A model generated the notes under the pieces. The model was not told where the DNA came from and searched no databases. It saw only the letters and a program-made list of their open reading frames with translations. The position numbers were made by a program, and so were the translations under genes. Positions 1,658-7,959 of a DNA stretch of 7,959 nucleotides are shown here, piece after piece. The stretch comes from Treponema sp. (GTDB taxonomy: Bacteria > Spirochaetota > Spirochaetia > Treponematales > Breznakiellaceae), in assembly GCA_031275035.1 (NCBI GenBank), contig JAISPH010000098.1:1-7959 (forward strand). Reading direction: 5' to 3'. Each line of letters starts with the position of its first letter. Within the stretch, counting starts at the first letter, position 1.

Positions 1658-4240
1658 TTATGCCCTAAGGTTTACCCTAATCACATGGTAGGGGAAGGGG
1701 TACTCCGGGTGATAGATCCCGGGCAGCATAAGGCAGGCGCCGGAAACGCCTTGAACGGTTACATAGACCTGGATATCCCAATCGGGGCTCACATAATCCG
1801 CCGGGATTTCCGCCGTCCAGGATGTCCCCCGGTTTTTCATCTCCCCGGTGCAGAAAAGGCCCTCTGTCTGGTCCGTGTGGCGGTAGTGCAGTGTCGGCGC
1901 GGTATCGGAGAGCTTAAAGCCTGAGCCCCTTACCGTAATGGCAACGGCCTTTCCGGCCTCGGCGGTTTCGGGGAAAGAAGCCGCAAGCTGGCAGCGTTCC
2001 ACCGGGAATTCCGCTTCCCGGTAACAGCCCGCAAGCTCTGCCCCGGCGGCCGCGTCCCGGGCTTTCATCAGATCCGCCAGAGCCGCCCGGTCCGCCAGAA
2101 GTTCCGGCGTCAGATCCGCCCAGGTACCCCGCCTGGTAAGGGAACCCCGGGAACCGAAAACAAGGTCCGGGTAGTAGTTTTCCTTGCCCCTTTGGGCCAG
2201 GGCTTCCCAGTGCCTAATGGCCTTATCCAGAAGCAGCAGGGCGTCGGAAAGCCGGCTTTTGTCGCCGCTGATCCGCCACAGGGCCAAAGCCGTTGCCGCC
2301 CTGAGCTTCTCCGCGTGGTACCGGGCAAGATCGCGGAGCATGGAAATGTCAACTTTCATAGCCAGGTATTCAGGATTCTTTTGATCCTTCCCAAGGTTTT
2401 CCGCGCCGGCCATGAAGCTGTCCGCGGCCTCCGCGAGATTTTCAAGCCAGCCGGCGGTCTGGAAGGGCGTGTACTTCCCCTGGAATTTTCCTGCCGCCAG
2501 ATCCCCGGCGTATTCATCGACACCGTAAAAAAGCCCGTGATCGCCGGGCTCGGTAGAACCATAGCTCGGGCGGGGCTCTATGTTCTTAACTTTGTAGATG
2601 TTGTTTTCCGGAAACAGAGAATAGCCGGTACTCATCTCGGGCCAGTAGGTGTTTGAGGGGTGGACCGGCATATGAATAGTCGTGATAAGGGGAATAATCT
2701 TGCTGGCCGCCGCCAGGGCCTTTTCCAGGGCCTCGCCGGCGCAGCCGAAACGGGCGCGGAATTCATCCTGCCAGACCGCGGGATCCGTATCGGGGTTGTA
2801 ACCCAGGCGGCCGTAAACGGTGTACCACATCCAGTAGCGCTGGTCCTCCCAGTTTCCGGAACGAAGCTCCTCCTTCGCAAAGGTATGCCAGGCTTCTCTG
2901 TGCCAGGGCTCATGGTTGTACTTGAGTGCCAGGGGAGTGTTGATCTGAAAACCCGCGGAACCAGAAAGGCCGCAGGCCAGGGAGAAACGCCGGGCGTAAT
3001 CCGCATCGCCCCAGATAAAGAGATTGGTGGAACCGTAGTTCCACAGCCGGAAGATCATGTCGTAATACCGGGGCTTCTTAAGCATATTCGCGTAGGAGTA
3101 GCGGCGGGAAAAATTGAAGTTATCCAGCCTTTCCAGTTCTTCCCTGCGCATGACCGAGAGATGGTAAGGCAGGGCCGCGTGTTCGCACCAGAATTTGGTG
3201 GCCACCTCTACCGGGAGGCCCAGGGCGAAGGCGTGGTCTACCATGCCGTCGGTCATGCCCTTGGCCCTGAGATCCAGCGTGATGTCGCGGCCCGTCTCCG
3301 CGGCAACATCGGCCACCGCGTCGGCGCAGCGGTTCCAGAAATCTTCCGCCGAAACCTGGGTTCCTACGCCGGATTCATGGTTTACCCGGAATTGTACCAC
3401 ATCAATTTCGGGTACCGCGGCAATGAGGGTTTTAAGCCCCTTAAAACAGTATTCGCCCAGGTCCGCGACATCTTCCGGAAGGCCCATGACGGTTTGTTCT
3501 TCCCTGTTTTTCGACGGCCTTTGAGACCAGGAGGCGAATACGAATCGCATTCCGTAGCGGTGACAGAGACTGCCGATCAGACGCAAGGCCGCAAGGTTCT
3601 CCGCCCTCATCCGGGCCTCGAAATTCCTGACATACACATCGGGGTAGTCCGGCATTTCCACGAAATAGGGATACGGCGGCGCCATCCAGGGCGTATCAAA
3701 CCCGATGATAAGGCAGAAACGGTTGAACCGGGCCCGGGCCATGCGGCTTAAAAGGTAGTGCCAGAATTCCTCCGAAAAAAACCATTCGTTATCAAGGTGT
3801 CCCAAAAGGTAGCGGTCTACACAGCGAACCTTGTTTTGCGGCGATTCGATAAGGTCCCCCGCCTTATTGAGGGCGCCAATCCCCTCCGCCCCGACACGGC
3901 GGGCTGTCTCCAGGAGGTTGTACATCAGTCCCGCGCTGTCGCTCCCGCCGATAAGCAGGGCCTTTCCCCCGTCGGGAAGATCACAGGTTTTGCGGATCAC
4001 GCTTTCGGGATCGAGCCGCCGGTCAAGGCCGGCGTTTGAAAGCAGCAGTTGTATACGGCGGTTTTCCGTCGTGCCGATAAGCAGCACGGGAGTTCCCCCG
4101 GGAAGCCCTTGCCAGTGCTTTACCTTTGTAATACCGGTGCCGCTCTTTTCCAGGGCGCCGTAAAATTCACCAAGGCCGAATCGGGCGCAACCGGATACAT
4201 CAAGTTCGATAACAAACACGCCGGTAGAACTAAACTCCAT
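1658..4240 (-). CDS. Large cytoplasmic glycoside-hydrolase-like protein (GH67/GH20-like architecture)
   Basis: An 860-residue protein with no signal peptide, so probably cytoplasmic and acting on imported material. Residues about 50-115 look like the alpha/beta N-terminal domain that precedes the barrel in alpha-glucuronidases and hexosaminidases: VLLIGTTEN (52-60), then LLIGGSDSAGLMYNLLE (95-111). From about 138 a TIM-barrel-like part begins: RCVDRYLLGHLDNEWF, then RFNRFCLIIGFDTPW (171-185), YGMRFVFASW (229-238), VVQFRVNHESG (281-291), TLDLRAKG (321-328), ATKFWCEH (347-354) and LFIWGDADY (407-415). Asp181, Glu289, Glu353 and Asp412 lie at such strand ends and are candidate active-site acids (inference). 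A helical part (about 590-735) and a C-terminal Ig-like beta domain (about 745-835) follow. I cannot assign a known family or substrate. The start is supported by AAGGAGG ten bases upstream and a strong promoter. Confidence 0.88.
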   Translation of the reverse strand: MEFSSTGVFVIELDVSGCARFGLGEFYGALEKSGTGITKVKHWQGLPGGTPVLLIGTTENRRIQLLLSNAGLDRRLDPESVIRKTCDLPDGGKALLIGGSDSAGLMYNLLETARRVGAEGIGALNKAGDLIESPQNKVRCVDRYLLGHLDNEWFFSEEFWHYLLSRMARARFNRFCLIIGFDTPWMAPPYPYFVEMPDYPDVYVRNFEARMRAENLAALRLIGSLCHRYGMRFVFASWSQRPSKNREEQTVMGLPEDVADLGEYCFKGLKTLIAAVPEIDVVQFRVNHESGVGTQVSAEDFWNRCADAVADVAAETGRDITLDLRAKGMTDGMVDHAFALGLPVEVATKFWCEHAALPYHLSVMRREELERLDNFNFSRRYSYANMLKKPRYYDMIFRLWNYGSTNLFIWGDADYARRFSLACGLSGSAGFQINTPLALKYNHEPWHREAWHTFAKEELRSGNWEDQRYWMWYTVYGRLGYNPDTDPAVWQDEFRARFGCAGEALEKALAAASKIIPLITTIHMPVHPSNTYWPEMSTGYSLFPENNIYKVKNIEPRPSYGSTEPGDHGLFYGVDEYAGDLAAGKFQGKYTPFQTAGWLENLAEAADSFMAGAENLGKDQKNPEYLAMKVDISMLRDLARYHAEKLRAATALALWRISGDKSRLSDALLLLDKAIRHWEALAQRGKENYYPDLVFGSRGSLTRRGTWADLTPELLADRAALADLMKARDAAAGAELAGCYREAEFPVERCQLAASFPETAEAGKAVAITVRGSGFKLSDTAPTLHYRHTDQTEGLFCTGEMKNRGTSWTAEIPADYVSPDWDIQVYVTVQGVSGACLMLPGIYHPEYPFPYHVIRVNLRA

Positions 4241-4605: not shown

Positions 4606-5253
4606 TTATTGCTTTGTACACCAATGCAAGGCATTAAGAAGGAGTTGCTGAAAAGAAGGATGTTCCCAAACAGACAAAATGTGTCCGGGGGTCATGACAC
4701 AAAGCCGGCCCTTGCCCATTTCCCGCGCATATCCGCCGATTTGCCGTCCCCCCGCTTCCGAGGAGGTAAAAAAAAGTTCTACCGCATCTGTCGCAAAATA
4801 ATCCAATTGATAGTGTTCATCCCGGATTGAAAAATTCTCAACCCCCCGCACGATGGGATGGGTACCACTTATAATAACATCAATTTCGCAGCGCGGAGGA
4901 TGTCCTAAAAAGATATTACCCACAAATTCCCCGTACTCCTCCCCTTTTTTTGCCGTATTGGCGGCATGTATAGAAAGGAATCCGCCGCCACCGCAGACAT
5001 AGTCCCGAAAATCCTTGACCCCGGTCTCGGTAACGCCATCTTCAAACCAAGGGGCGCTATTAGCGGAGTTTAAATTGTTGCCTTTACAGTTGATAATTGC
5101 CGGATAATATTTAAGCATCCGGGGAGTAAGAATATCCTTGGCATCCATAACAAAATCAAAAGCAAACGGGCTGCTTTTAAAATTCCGGAGTCCTCTTTTG
5201 ATCACTTCGGCGGGGTGCCAATAGTCATCACATAACACCAAAACGTTAATCAT
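4606..5253 (-). CDS. ThuA-like domain protein
   Basis: A 215-residue protein of the ThuA-like family (class I glutamine-amidotransferase-like fold), whose founder takes part in trehalose and related disaccharide catabolism in rhizobia. Visible hallmarks are the N-terminal strand NVLVLCDD, GGGGFLSIHAAN (88-99) at the position of the GATase nucleophile elbow, with His97 and no Cys there, FLGHPP (115-120), GTHPIVRGVENF (130-141), DEHYQLDYF (145-153), the GKGRLCVMTPGH stretch (181-191, ending at His191) and HPSFQQLLLNALHW (198-211). Length is typical and there is no signal peptide. I chose ATG at 5251-5253, with AAGGAG seven bases upstream; a TTG one codon earlier is in frame but too close to that site. 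It is the last gene of the operon, 26 bases after the short SDR-like gene. The company of SDRs and transporters supports a role in sugar conversion, but the substrate is unknown. Confidence 0.9.
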   Translation of the reverse strand: MINVLVLCDDYWHPAEVIKRGLRNFKSSPFAFDFVMDAKDILTPRMLKYYPAIINCKGNNLNSANSAPWFEDGVTETGVKDFRDYVCGGGGFLSIHAANTAKKGEEYGEFVGNIFLGHPPRCEIDVIISGTHPIVRGVENFSIRDEHYQLDYFATDAVELFFTSSEAGGRQIGGYAREMGKGRLCVMTPGHILSVWEHPSFQQLLLNALHWCTKQ

Positions 5254-5279
5254 CAAATATCTCCTTGAATTTAGAATAT

Positions 5280-5834
5280 TTACCAGGGATATTCTATCTC
5301 AAATCTACCGCGGATAACAAGCCTGTTTTCATCCGAATGGGCTTCCGATTCTTTTTCAAGGCTCCGGTTTCTGATAAAATAGTCCGCTATATATGGACAC
5401 TCGTCGCTGCTTTCAAAATTCTCCGCCCCATAGAGCCTGAATGTATATCCGGCCGGACGCAGCCTGTTAAACAAAATTTTTATTGCCATATTGCAGGATG
5501 CCGAAATAATCCGTTCAAAGCCACCATCAAATATGCCGGCGAAATTTATAGAAGAAGCCAACCGGTTAATAAAACACAGACGTTTACCTTCCCCTTGTTC
5601 CATGCGGGGTAAAAGCCGGGAGACCGCGTTAAGCAGCCCTATTGCCGTGGACTGGTACCCCGATAACAAATTTCCGTAATCATTCCTGCCGCAGGGCGGC
5701 GGGTCAATAATATATACAAACATATCCACAGTCTTATTATCATCCCCCGGCAGAAATCCCATATCCTTGAAGCGAGCTAATAGGGATGCGGCAAATTGAG
5801 GATTATCTCCTCCGATTTCAACTGTTTTTTTCAT
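5280..5834 (-). CDS. Shortened, catalytically dead SDR-like protein (tandem paralogue)
   Basis: A 184-residue protein related to the SDR encoded just upstream. Residues 84-140 align without gaps to residues 132-188 of that neighbour with 23 identities, including KRLC, NMA, K.LF and P.GY.FRLY. The active-site positions are all changed: neighbour Asn110 is Thr63, Ser139 is Arg91, Tyr155 is Glu107 and Lys159 is Ser111. The NAG motif is replaced by IID (43-45). Of the cofactor glycines at 9, 13 and 15, only Gly9 remains. About 40 residues of the cofactor half (neighbour about 30-70) are absent. The C-terminus EYPW matches the neighbour's TWPF. AAGGA eight bases before the ATG, an intact frame and an 11-base gap argue that it is expressed. 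It cannot be a normal dehydrogenase. A partner or regulatory subunit of the active SDR is my inference; a decaying duplicate is the alternative. Confidence 0.87.
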   Translation of the reverse strand: MKKTVEIGGDNPQFAASLLARFKDMGFLPGDDNKTVDMFVYIIDPPPCGRNDYGNLLSGYQSTAIGLLNAVSRLLPRMEQGEGKRLCFINRLASSINFAGIFDGGFERIISASCNMAIKILFNRLRPAGYTFRLYGAENFESSDECPYIADYFIRNRSLEKESEAHSDENRLVIRGRFEIEYPW

Positions 5835-5845
5835 TCTGCATATCC

Positions 5846-6559
5846 TTAAAAGGGCCAGGTAACATTTTCATTATCTATCAAACGAAGTATATCTTCAGGG
5901 AATTCATCTTTTAGAAAATAACGGACGGCCGATTCTGCCGTTTCTTCCGGCTCAAATTTTCCGTTAAGACTTTTTTCCCCCGACATGTATGAACGTACCC
6001 ATCCGGGATGGTACAAACGGAAAGAATAACCCCGGGGATATAAGTCTTTAAAAAGGAGTTTTACCGCCATGTTCGGGGCCGTTTTCGACATGGGATAAAT
6101 AAACCCGTCCTGACGGTGGCAGACACCGATGCTTCCCGCCTCAGAAGAAACGTAGCACAGTCTTTTTAAAGAACCGGGGTGATCCGTCAACGGTAAAAAG
6201 AAATCGGTTATCCGCAAAGCACCTATACAGTTCGTATTAAAAATATCCGCCCCTCTTTTGTCATCAAAGGTGTAAATATCCCCACCGCTGCCACTAATCC
6301 CGGCGTTACTTACGATCATGTCAATACATTCTGCCATGGACGCAACAATCTTGTAAGCCTCTTTGATAGAAATGTCATCCGATACATTAAAGGGAATAAT
6401 ATGAAGGGTATCCGGATAACGCCCCTGTAATTCGACAAGTTCACCCCAACCTTTCATATATTGACCGGCAAACACTGCCCACCCTTCCTGCAAAAACGAT
6501 TTTGTCAAAGCAAAACCAATTCCTCGATCGGCGCCGCTTATCAATACCTTTCTTGGCAT
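5846..6559 (-). CDS. Short-chain dehydrogenase/reductase (classical SDR)
   Basis: A 237-residue NAD(P)-dependent oxidoreductase of the classical SDR family, cytoplasmic. The Rossmann motif is GADRGIG (9-15), DxxG-type sequence is weak, and NAG is at 85-87. The active-site set is Asn110, Ser139 (in YVSSEAGS) and YPMSK (Tyr155, Lys159). HPGW (184-187) closes the cofactor pocket. The protein ends in WPF, resembling the aromatic-Pro-aromatic tail of its shortened paralogue. Length is close to the usual 250. The start codon has AAAGGAGG five to six bases upstream and overlaps the MFS gene by 19 bases, which indicates translational coupling. Operon context suggests oxidation or reduction of an imported sugar or polyol; the actual substrate and the NAD or NADP preference are not readable with confidence. 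Confidence 0.94.
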   Translation of the reverse strand: MPRKVLISGADRGIGFALTKSFLQEGWAVFAGQYMKGWGELVELQGRYPDTLHIIPFNVSDDISIKEAYKIVASMAECIDMIVSNAGISGSGGDIYTFDDKRGADIFNTNCIGALRITDFFLPLTDHPGSLKRLCYVSSEAGSIGVCHRQDGFIYPMSKTAPNMAVKLLFKDLYPRGYSFRLYHPGWVRSYMSGEKSLNGKFEPEETAESAVRYFLKDEFPEDILRLIDNENVTWPF

Positions 6560-7767
6560 TCTGCCTCCTTTTTCCTTTCTGCAACTGTATCTGTTACAAC
6601 AAAAACCGTGGTAACCAGGATAATCGATATTATACCAATAATGTACATTGCGCGATATCCAAGACTCCCGATAACCAGGCCGCCCAGGGTATTCCCTATT
6701 ATGCCGCTTATTCCGTAATAAAAGGCATAAGCGATGGTTTGATATGTTATTCTCAGTTGTTTTGGCGCAATATCATCCAAATAATAAAGGGTTCCTATGG
6801 TAAAAAGCGCAAAAGATGGGCCGTCCAGGACGGCTATTATCATAATATGAAAAGGACTTGTCGCAACGGCGTATCCGGCCTGCCAGATGATAAAAAATAC
6901 CGAGGATCCCACAATAAGATATTTTGCTGATATATTCGACAATAATTTTTTTGACAAAAATAGTAATACTGCTTCCGAGACAAACATGATGGCGCTGCAA
7001 TATCCGACCATGTCTTTTGAACCACCCAAATTCTGTAACAAGGCAGGATAAAAGGTATATGCGGCCCTGTGAGGATACTGCATTATAACAACAAAACCCA
7101 AAAATACAAGGAATGACTTGTTTTTGTATATTAATGATAAATCAATTTTCTCCATTTTTATTGTTCTGTCCTTTTTATCATGTGTCTTTATCGCTGACAT
7201 TGTAGCGGCAATTATCAACAAGACGATTGAAAATACGGGAATTATATCACTTGTAGAATGGTTGTTGATAAAGATACCCGATATAATACTGCTGGCGGCA
7301 AATCCAAGACAGCCCCAAAGCTTAAGCTGGCCCAATGATTTTTCATCCTTTATCCTTTTTACCGCATTCAGGCTCCATGTATCAAGCAGGGTGCCTTCCG
7401 GAGAAGAAAAAAAAGTATAGAAGCAAAAACACGGGGCTATTAAAAAAAATCCTTCCGAGCGTACAAGCAGCAATGATATCAAGCCCTGGCCTATCAAACA
7501 GATTATTAAGGTAGCCTTTACGGACTGCAATTTATCGGAAACAAGTCCCCAAAAGGGTTGTGCCAATATTATTACAAAAGAATTAATGCCCATTATGATA
7601 CCGATAAATTCTACATCAAGGCCCTTTTCATTTAAATATACGGTAATAAATGGATTAAATATCGCCCTGGCCGACATAAAAAACAGGTAGACCAGGGCAA
7701 AGGTTATTTTTGTTTTTTCCGCCATTCCGGCATTAAATTCTTCTTCCGCCGAAATTTTGTTTTTCAC
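6541..7767 (-). CDS. MFS transporter, MFS_1-like (LacY/phenylpropionate-permease-like)
   Basis: A 408-residue inner-membrane carrier with about twelve hydrophobic segments in two halves, split by a charged cytoplasmic loop (about 193-217). Motif A follows the second segment (GLVSDKLQSVK, 74-84: Gly74, Asp78, Lys84). LLDTWSLNA (127-135) and LGQLKLWGCLGFA (145-157) fit the pattern typical of the MFS_1-like group that includes sugar and phenylpropionate proton symporters. It probably moves a sugar or small organic compound with protons. The GTG start lies three bases after the solute-binding protein stop, and AAAAGG is directly against it with no spacer. Initiation therefore either depends on ribosomes finishing the upstream gene or occurs at ATG codon 15 (MAEKTK). 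Its last 19 bases overlap the SDR gene. It is clearly poorer in GC than the genes below 4240. Confidence 0.93.
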   Translation of the reverse strand: MKNKISAEEEFNAGMAEKTKITFALVYLFFMSARAIFNPFITVYLNEKGLDVEFIGIIMGINSFVIILAQPFWGLVSDKLQSVKATLIICLIGQGLISLLLVRSEGFFLIAPCFCFYTFFSSPEGTLLDTWSLNAVKRIKDEKSLGQLKLWGCLGFAASSIISGIFINNHSTSDIIPVFSIVLLIIAATMSAIKTHDKKDRTIKMEKIDLSLIYKNKSFLVFLGFVVIMQYPHRAAYTFYPALLQNLGGSKDMVGYCSAIMFVSEAVLLFLSKKLLSNISAKYLIVGSSVFFIIWQAGYAVATSPFHIMIIAVLDGPSFALFTIGTLYYLDDIAPKQLRITYQTIAYAFYYGISGIIGNTLGGLVIGSLGYRAMYIIGIISIILVTTVFVVTDTVAERKKEAECQERY

Positions 7768-7770
7768 CTT

Positions 7771-7959
7771 TTATTTCCATTCATTGTTTGCGTCTACATG
7801 CGCATACCACTGCTTGATATATAATTCATGCAGTTTGTCCATGCCCGCAGCTTCGGCATTTTTCAAAAATTCATCGATCGCCGTATCCACATTGTCCACC
7901 ATTCCGGCTTGCAGCGGAACCAGATATTGGGTAACGACATTCATCAAAGCCGCCCGTTC
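7771..7959 (-). CDS. Extracellular solute-binding protein, family 1-like, C-terminal end (partial)
   Basis: The frame enters from the right edge and gives 62 residues before TAA (7773-7771); the start lies outside the window. The fragment begins ERAALMNVVTQYL, continues with a short Asp-rich turn and an amphipathic helix (VDTAIDEFLKNAEAAGMDKL), then LYIKQWYAHV and a hydrophilic end (NNEWK). The order NVV-QYL-PLQAG-VD-FLK-AGMDK-QW is what the last two helices of LplA/YtcQ-like sugar-binding lipoproteins look like. Such proteins work outside the membrane with two ABC permeases, which would be expected just beyond the window edge. The MFS gene begins three bases later, so the two are cotranscribed. 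Confidence 0.75.
   Translation of the reverse strand, partial: ERAALMNVVTQYLVPLQAGMVDNVDTAIDEFLKNAEAAGMDKLHELYIKQWYAHVDANNEWK

Follow-up and report, generated by a model that had tools for sequence, protein, structure and literature searches.

Tandem genes for an active and a degenerate short-chain dehydrogenase in a Treponema sp. contig, candidate subunits of one heteromeric enzyme

Short-chain dehydrogenases (SDRs) assembled from two kinds of subunit are already known. BbsCD is reported to be a heterotetramer that pairs two SDR subunits, of which one is an inactive pseudoenzyme. The human mitochondrial ketoacyl reductase is likewise an SDR heterotetramer of two paralogues; both of its subunit types bind cofactor, and its genes, unlike those described here, do not form a bacterial tandem. 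In the thuAB system, ThuA and an oxidoreductase make 3-keto derivatives of disaccharides, and in the thuEFGKAB pathway a ThuA-family gene stands beside an oxidoreductase gene and a sugar transporter (PMC4765114). We analysed a 7,959-nucleotide stretch of DNA from Treponema sp. (contig JAISPH010000098.1; 'the window'), which has the same kind of arrangement except that the oxidoreductase is not ThuB but a tandem of two SDR genes, here called A and B. From the patterns of conservation set out below we consider it likely that A and B would be the catalytic and the non-catalytic subunits of one heteromeric short-chain dehydrogenase.

Protein A has the features of a classical SDR, namely an adh_short domain (75 bits in the Pfam scan of the window proteins), GxxxGxG, NAG/NNAG and the N-S-Y-K tetrad. 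Protein B matches nothing in Pfam or NCBIfam but is homologous to A (29/77 identities, E 4e-13, in a single BLASTP comparison). A preliminary description of the locus had counted 23 identities in a gapless 57-residue stretch; the homology stands, although the count is 24 at the best register and 23 in shifted ones; 150 shuffled versions of B reached at most 16. The losses that it listed are all found in the alignments: every position of the tetrad is replaced (T/R/E/S in B), the GADRGIG loop of A aligns with GDNPQFA, NAG is gone, and a gap of ~43 residues, put earlier at about 40, falls in the nucleotide-binding half. B also lacks ~14 further residues of the HPGW loop. It therefore does not qualify as a classical SDR enzyme, and it belongs to the SDR superfamily by descent and, in a structure model, by predicted fold. 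The modelled chain runs beta1-alphaA-beta4-alphaE-beta5-alphaF-beta6-alphaG and ends in a C-terminal tail, with beta2-alphaB-beta3-alphaC absent. As described earlier, B retains FRLY and an aromatic-Pro-aromatic end, YPW where A has WPF, and its frame is indeed intact and preceded by a ribosome binding site. This site overlaps the stop codon of A, 11 nt separating the two genes, which makes translational coupling of A and B likely.

Window B is not an isolated oddity. A protein search gave a family of 24 short B proteins including that of the window, with lengths of 148-208 residues, none of which has the tetrad restored; orthologues that keep the catalytic residues were what, in the preliminary description, would have refuted a non-catalytic role. 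Glu occupies the former Tyr position in all 24. Conservation within this clade is highest in beta6 (0.92), tail residues 165-175 (0.89), beta5 (0.86) and alphaF (0.85), and lowest in the linker that remains at the deletion (0.57) and in what is left of the HPGW loop (0.53). A source name is attached to 20 of the 23 other members, in every case 'hypothetical protein'; an NCBI organism is given for three, Treponema for two of them and Spirochaetia for one. With such names and no Pfam or NCBIfam match for B, the second half of a probable enzyme has been overlooked. For eleven of the 23, the longest contig is equal in length to that of an A-type protein among the 120 A matches listed, an indirect sign of pairing; contigs of ~1 kb are too short to hold both. 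A sequence search of the PDB with the short family gave a best E of only 0.14, and viral contigs yielded no relative.

The preliminary description asked whether B always sits beside a full-length SDR. Scanning with B, at one genome per species, found 28 loci, 24 of which contain two SDR genes in tandem on the same strand; in a further one, L015, the sequence starts inside B at a contig end, and the other three (L026, L027 and L028) hold fragments only, with no intact A or B found there. In L028 (8001-8218), from a complete Lachnospiraceae genome, an open ThuA frame precedes short pieces of B in different frames, the locus has no A match, and A and B appear to have been lost together. The search within the family of the Treponema locus matched 18 of 195 genomes, 16 of them with the pair; the remaining two are the genome of L015 and one with a single SDR (G021). 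Six of 397 genomes matched in the family of the Lachnospiraceae locus, at a stricter cut-off. When the class of that locus was searched with A as query, 13 of 391 genomes matched: a degenerate B adjoins A in five (L072, L073, L074, L078, L079), and a second SDR is absent from the examined flanks of the remaining eight. Scored with hidden Markov models (HMMs) of A and B over all fetched loci, 47 of 48 distinct B-like frames have A directly upstream, the sole exception being a 95-residue fragment in L026. In the other direction, eight of 55 distinct A-like frames (>300 bits) lack a degenerate B in their vicinity: L075-L077, L094 and all four genes of the active-active tandems. This frequency is under-sampled, since B was the query for most of the fetched loci.

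After removal of repeats, 50 pairs could be compared: 48 combine an active A with a degenerate B, the window included, and two (L011 and L093) are active-active. The 48 come from the Treponema family, Lachnospiraceae and other Clostridia, and hence from two phyla; that the pair is specific to Treponema is ruled out by the scan loci in other taxa. Ser-Tyr-Lys is present in A of all 48, as is the PG of the HPGW loop, the full tetrad in all 47 that can be scored, and a three-glycine cofactor motif in 40 of these 47 (A of L012 is truncated by a contig end and unscorable for the motif and full tetrad). B has the three-glycine motif in 0/48 and the PG in 0/48, and lacks the tetrad in 33. Conversely, a tail pattern (DE, one to three residues, an L-V-like step, any residue, an R-like residue) occurs in 47/48 B and 0/48 A; the C-terminus of A is a stretch related to the B tail. 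The gap between the genes is at most 40 nt in 40 of the 48 pairs. Neglectibacter timonensis (G005) has two A-B pairs, L006 and L016, from two different clades; within each pair both proteins fall in the clade of that pair, with no swapping of partners. Among the best 120 of 1463 matches to a joined A+B query there is one long protein, the 395-residue P0163, whose single open reading frame (ORF) couples an A-like SDR with half of another SDR of active type (its first half) and not with a B pseudoenzyme. It may be a true fusion or may result from a frame error within a tandem.

The history of the pair was traced in a careful tree of 64 chosen rows, covering 21 of the 48 pairs and both active-active ones and rooted on distant single SDRs. 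It contains an A clade (95/83) and a B clade (99/80). At the base of the B clade lie active proteins (L075/L077, the first genes of L011 and L093, and P0032/P0033), and all degenerate B form, with P0025, a single branch (95/98). The sequences thus suggest that degenerate B was derived once from an active B, an order of events that rests on one rooted tree. The same tree speaks against a recent local duplication as the source of window B. The two proteins are paralogues, as had been proposed, but by an old duplication, and the closest relatives of B are the other short B (47-81% identity). Both A and B of the window group with those of Lachnospiraceae L001 and of L072, and in this tree as in a quicker one the Treponema-family pairs sampled fall into a clade of their own. 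From this we conclude that the pair has probably moved between phyla. The 18 SDRs of neighbouring branches (L075-L077, L080-L084, L086-L091, L095-L098) have no second SDR within flanks of up to ~1.5 kb.

Degenerate though it is, B is maintained. In 17 comparisons of related pairs, the ratio of non-synonymous to synonymous substitution rates (dN/dS) for B is 0.058-0.199 in the 12 with finite dS, the five with infinite dS being left uncounted, and for A it is 0.056-0.405 in 14; several dS values lie near saturation, and the relatives compared include near-copies. The relatives of B are under purifying selection, with ratios well below the value near 1 that, in the preliminary description, would have refuted its proposal. 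The only DNA close to window B itself is the last 37 codons in L015, where five non-synonymous changes over 87.8 sites and 11 synonymous changes over 23.2 sites give a ratio of 0.08. That description had also named broken or absent B genes as refuting evidence: the match rows listed contain no stop, and L026, L027 and L028 do have fragments only. With neither relaxed selection in the dN/dS values nor stops in those rows, B does not have the marks of a pseudogene.

ThuA occurs in the examined flanks of 21 of 25 pair loci (the 24 scan loci and the window) by HMM; BLAST clustering places it in 19, all with a Pfam match, and directly adjacent in 17, the HMM adding two. A LacY-like transporter of the major facilitator superfamily (MFS) is present in nine of the 25. 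Since ThuA also adjoins several single SDRs and both active-active tandems, it is probably the older partner. In the longer flanks taken for 13 of the 16 Treponema-family pairs, ThuA is found in two, and no family other than A and B in more than five. In Clostridia the pair is usually near ThuA; across Treponema-family loci nothing but the pair itself is constant. A and B are linked to each other more tightly than to ThuA. In the window a ThuA protein (PF06283) adjoins the oxidoreductase genes, and none of the seven scanned window proteins is a ThuB-like Gfo/Idh/MocA protein.

These results support selection for a non-catalytic role of B beside an active SDR, as first proposed: the pairing is conserved, the tetrad is not restored in short orthologues and dN/dS is low. 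The role of sugar sensor, suggested in the same description, gained no specific support. In SDRs the main dimer interface is formed by alphaE and alphaF, and C-terminal tails often reach the neighbouring subunit. B retains alphaE, alphaF, beta6, alphaG and the tail, so it most likely takes the place of one subunit in a dimer or tetramer of A, where it would stabilise A and could shape or cap the active site of A with its tail. The path leading there would have begun with a ThuA-linked SDR that duplicated long ago into two active tandem paralogues; a single loss of both cofactor binding and substrate loop in B would have followed, most lineages would have lost the catalytic residues as well, and the window lineage also beta2-alphaB-beta3-alphaC. 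By analogy with the 3-keto chemistry of thuAB, and with a transporter gene nearby, the substrate is probably a sugar derivative, and the complex, ThuA and the transporter would together interconvert hydroxyl and keto forms of an imported one.

Several observations weigh against this heteromer. A quick tree of 101 rows, midpoint-rooted with no outgroup and leaving out nine near-copy or partial pairs, puts the active B-like SDRs with A and not with B, and the degenerate B rows form several branches in it. dN is higher in B than in A in 15 of the 17 comparisons. The middle glycine of the cofactor motif is replaced by Asn in seven of the 47 scorable A. In L094 an SDR of the A clade has no B beside it, so that in some lineage A can function by itself, and co-transcribed genes can travel together without their products binding. 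Lastly, 15 of the 48 B keep the NSYK tetrad, and some of these could bind a ligand or act otherwise. Fourteen of them come from the Treponema-family search (L037-L039, L041-L049, L051, L052) and one is L079; all fifteen have the catalytic residues without the three-glycine cofactor motif or HPGW loop.

The strongest competitor, which we regard as unlikely, is that B acts separately, as a regulator or a sensor of a ligand: it would fold alone, bind a sugar or metabolite, and transiently modulate A, ThuA or the transporter. A cofactor site that is gone and an invariant Glu at the Tyr position would fit a new ligand site, and the sugar-transporter-like gene beside some pairs would fit such a role, but the best conserved parts of the short clade (beta6, tail, beta5 and alphaF) do not obviously form a new pocket, and the pairing outlasts both the absence of ThuA and changes of neighbours, so that the target would have to be A. 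Less probable still is an enzyme of other chemistry, carrying out a dehydratase, epimerase or lyase step on a keto sugar with an SDR scaffold free of NAD(P). It could draw on the tetrad kept without a cofactor motif in the fifteen B just named and on the invariant Glu, Asp and Arg of the short clade. The old active-site positions nevertheless vary widely across B lineages (110 N/Q/Y and seven more; 139 S/T/R/K/D and more; 155 Y/E/Q/G/R and more; 159 K/W/R/Q/L and more), which one shared chemistry would not tolerate, and the PG of the substrate loop is gone from all 48. A decaying gene that is slowly being lost beside A by chance has the progressive loss of motifs and the three fragment loci in its favour, but dN/dS (0.06-0.20) speaks against it, as do the match rows listed, which contain no internal stop, the fragment loci, where neither an intact A nor an intact B was found, and the retention of the pair in two phyla. 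We give it almost no credence.

Set beside BbsCD, the putative A-B heteromer shares the pairing of two SDR genes, one with and one without catalytic and cofactor residues; it differs in pathway (a coenzyme A thioester there, probably a sugar here). New are the other lineage, the spread over two phyla, the living intermediates and the reduction of the pseudo-subunit to 184 residues; the lack of beta2-alphaB-beta3-alphaC in window B may be a further difference from BbsC. Two further points of reference are the human mitochondrial ketoacyl reductase (PDB: 4cql), at Foldseek rank 19 for the B model, and a patulin-detoxifying SDR (PDB: 7xwh-7xwn), which unlike A-B is described as a single enzyme with an unrelated substrate. 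Literature searches for SDR pseudoenzymes in heteromers led to BbsCD, in a collection without most subscription papers, where absence shows little. In searches on ThuA no listed title or abstract opening describes the pair, and no ThuA appears in the passages of PMC5673643.

Obligate pseudoenzyme subunits are rarely caught while evolving. The related loci form a series, from single SDRs through active-active tandems and B proteins that lack the cofactor site and substrate loop but keep NSYK, to B proteins without catalytic residues and finally with half a nucleotide-binding fold; a few proteins would suffice to test directly which came first, the heteromer or the loss of catalysis. Tentatively, the loci may define a group of obligate heteromeric SDRs of Clostridia and Treponema that serve ThuA in keto-sugar chemistry in place of ThuB; the pseudo-subunit of the window lineage would then be half a nucleotide-binding fold whose tail completes the active site of its partner, and the active-active relatives would preserve steps from a homomer to an obligate heteromer with a dead subunit.

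Table 1. Features of the window, in order along the minus strand, followed by sites at and within B.
Feature	Position	Strand	Basis or remark
DUF3502 protein, 3' end (PF12010, 40.9 bits)	7771-7959	minus	profile match
MFS sugar-symporter-like transporter (MFS_1_like, LacY_symp)	6541-7767	minus	19-nt overlap with start of A
A, 237-residue active-type SDR, adh_short (PF00106)	5846-6559	minus	GADRGIG, NAG, N110-S139-Y155-K159, HPGW
B, 184-residue SDR pseudoenzyme	5280-5834	minus	homology, family alignment, structure model
ThuA-family protein (PF06283, 85 bits), gene after B	4606-5256	minus	Pfam match
860-residue protein	1658-4240	minus	ORF; neighbourhood only, outside conserved pair
OppF-type ATP-binding cassette (ABC) ATPase	586-1569	minus	profile match
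Ribosome binding site of B, AAGGA	5847-5843	minus	overlaps TAA stop of A; 8 nt before ATG of B
B Thr63, at catalytic Asn110 position	5646-5648	minus	alignments
B Arg91, at catalytic Ser139 position	5562-5564	minus	alignments
B Glu107, at catalytic Tyr155 position	5514-5516	minus	alignments
B Ser111, at catalytic Lys159 position	5502-5504	minus	alignment
B residues 165-175 (AHSDENRLVIR), conserved C-terminal tail of B lineage	5310-5342	minus	family alignment

Transcription on the minus strand would run through the genes in the order of Table 1, from the DUF3502 end to the OppF-type ATPase. DUF3502, here at window positions 7771-7959, is the C-terminus of LplA-type solute-binding proteins, and together with the MFS protein and OppF it makes the stretch rich in transport genes. 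The 860-residue protein has no Pfam match and no match among solved structures; it has a single weak local match, of 43.6 bits against a cut-off of 1300, between residues 612-690 and the alpha-D-galacturonidase model NF049878. It possibly represents an undescribed group of glycosidases.
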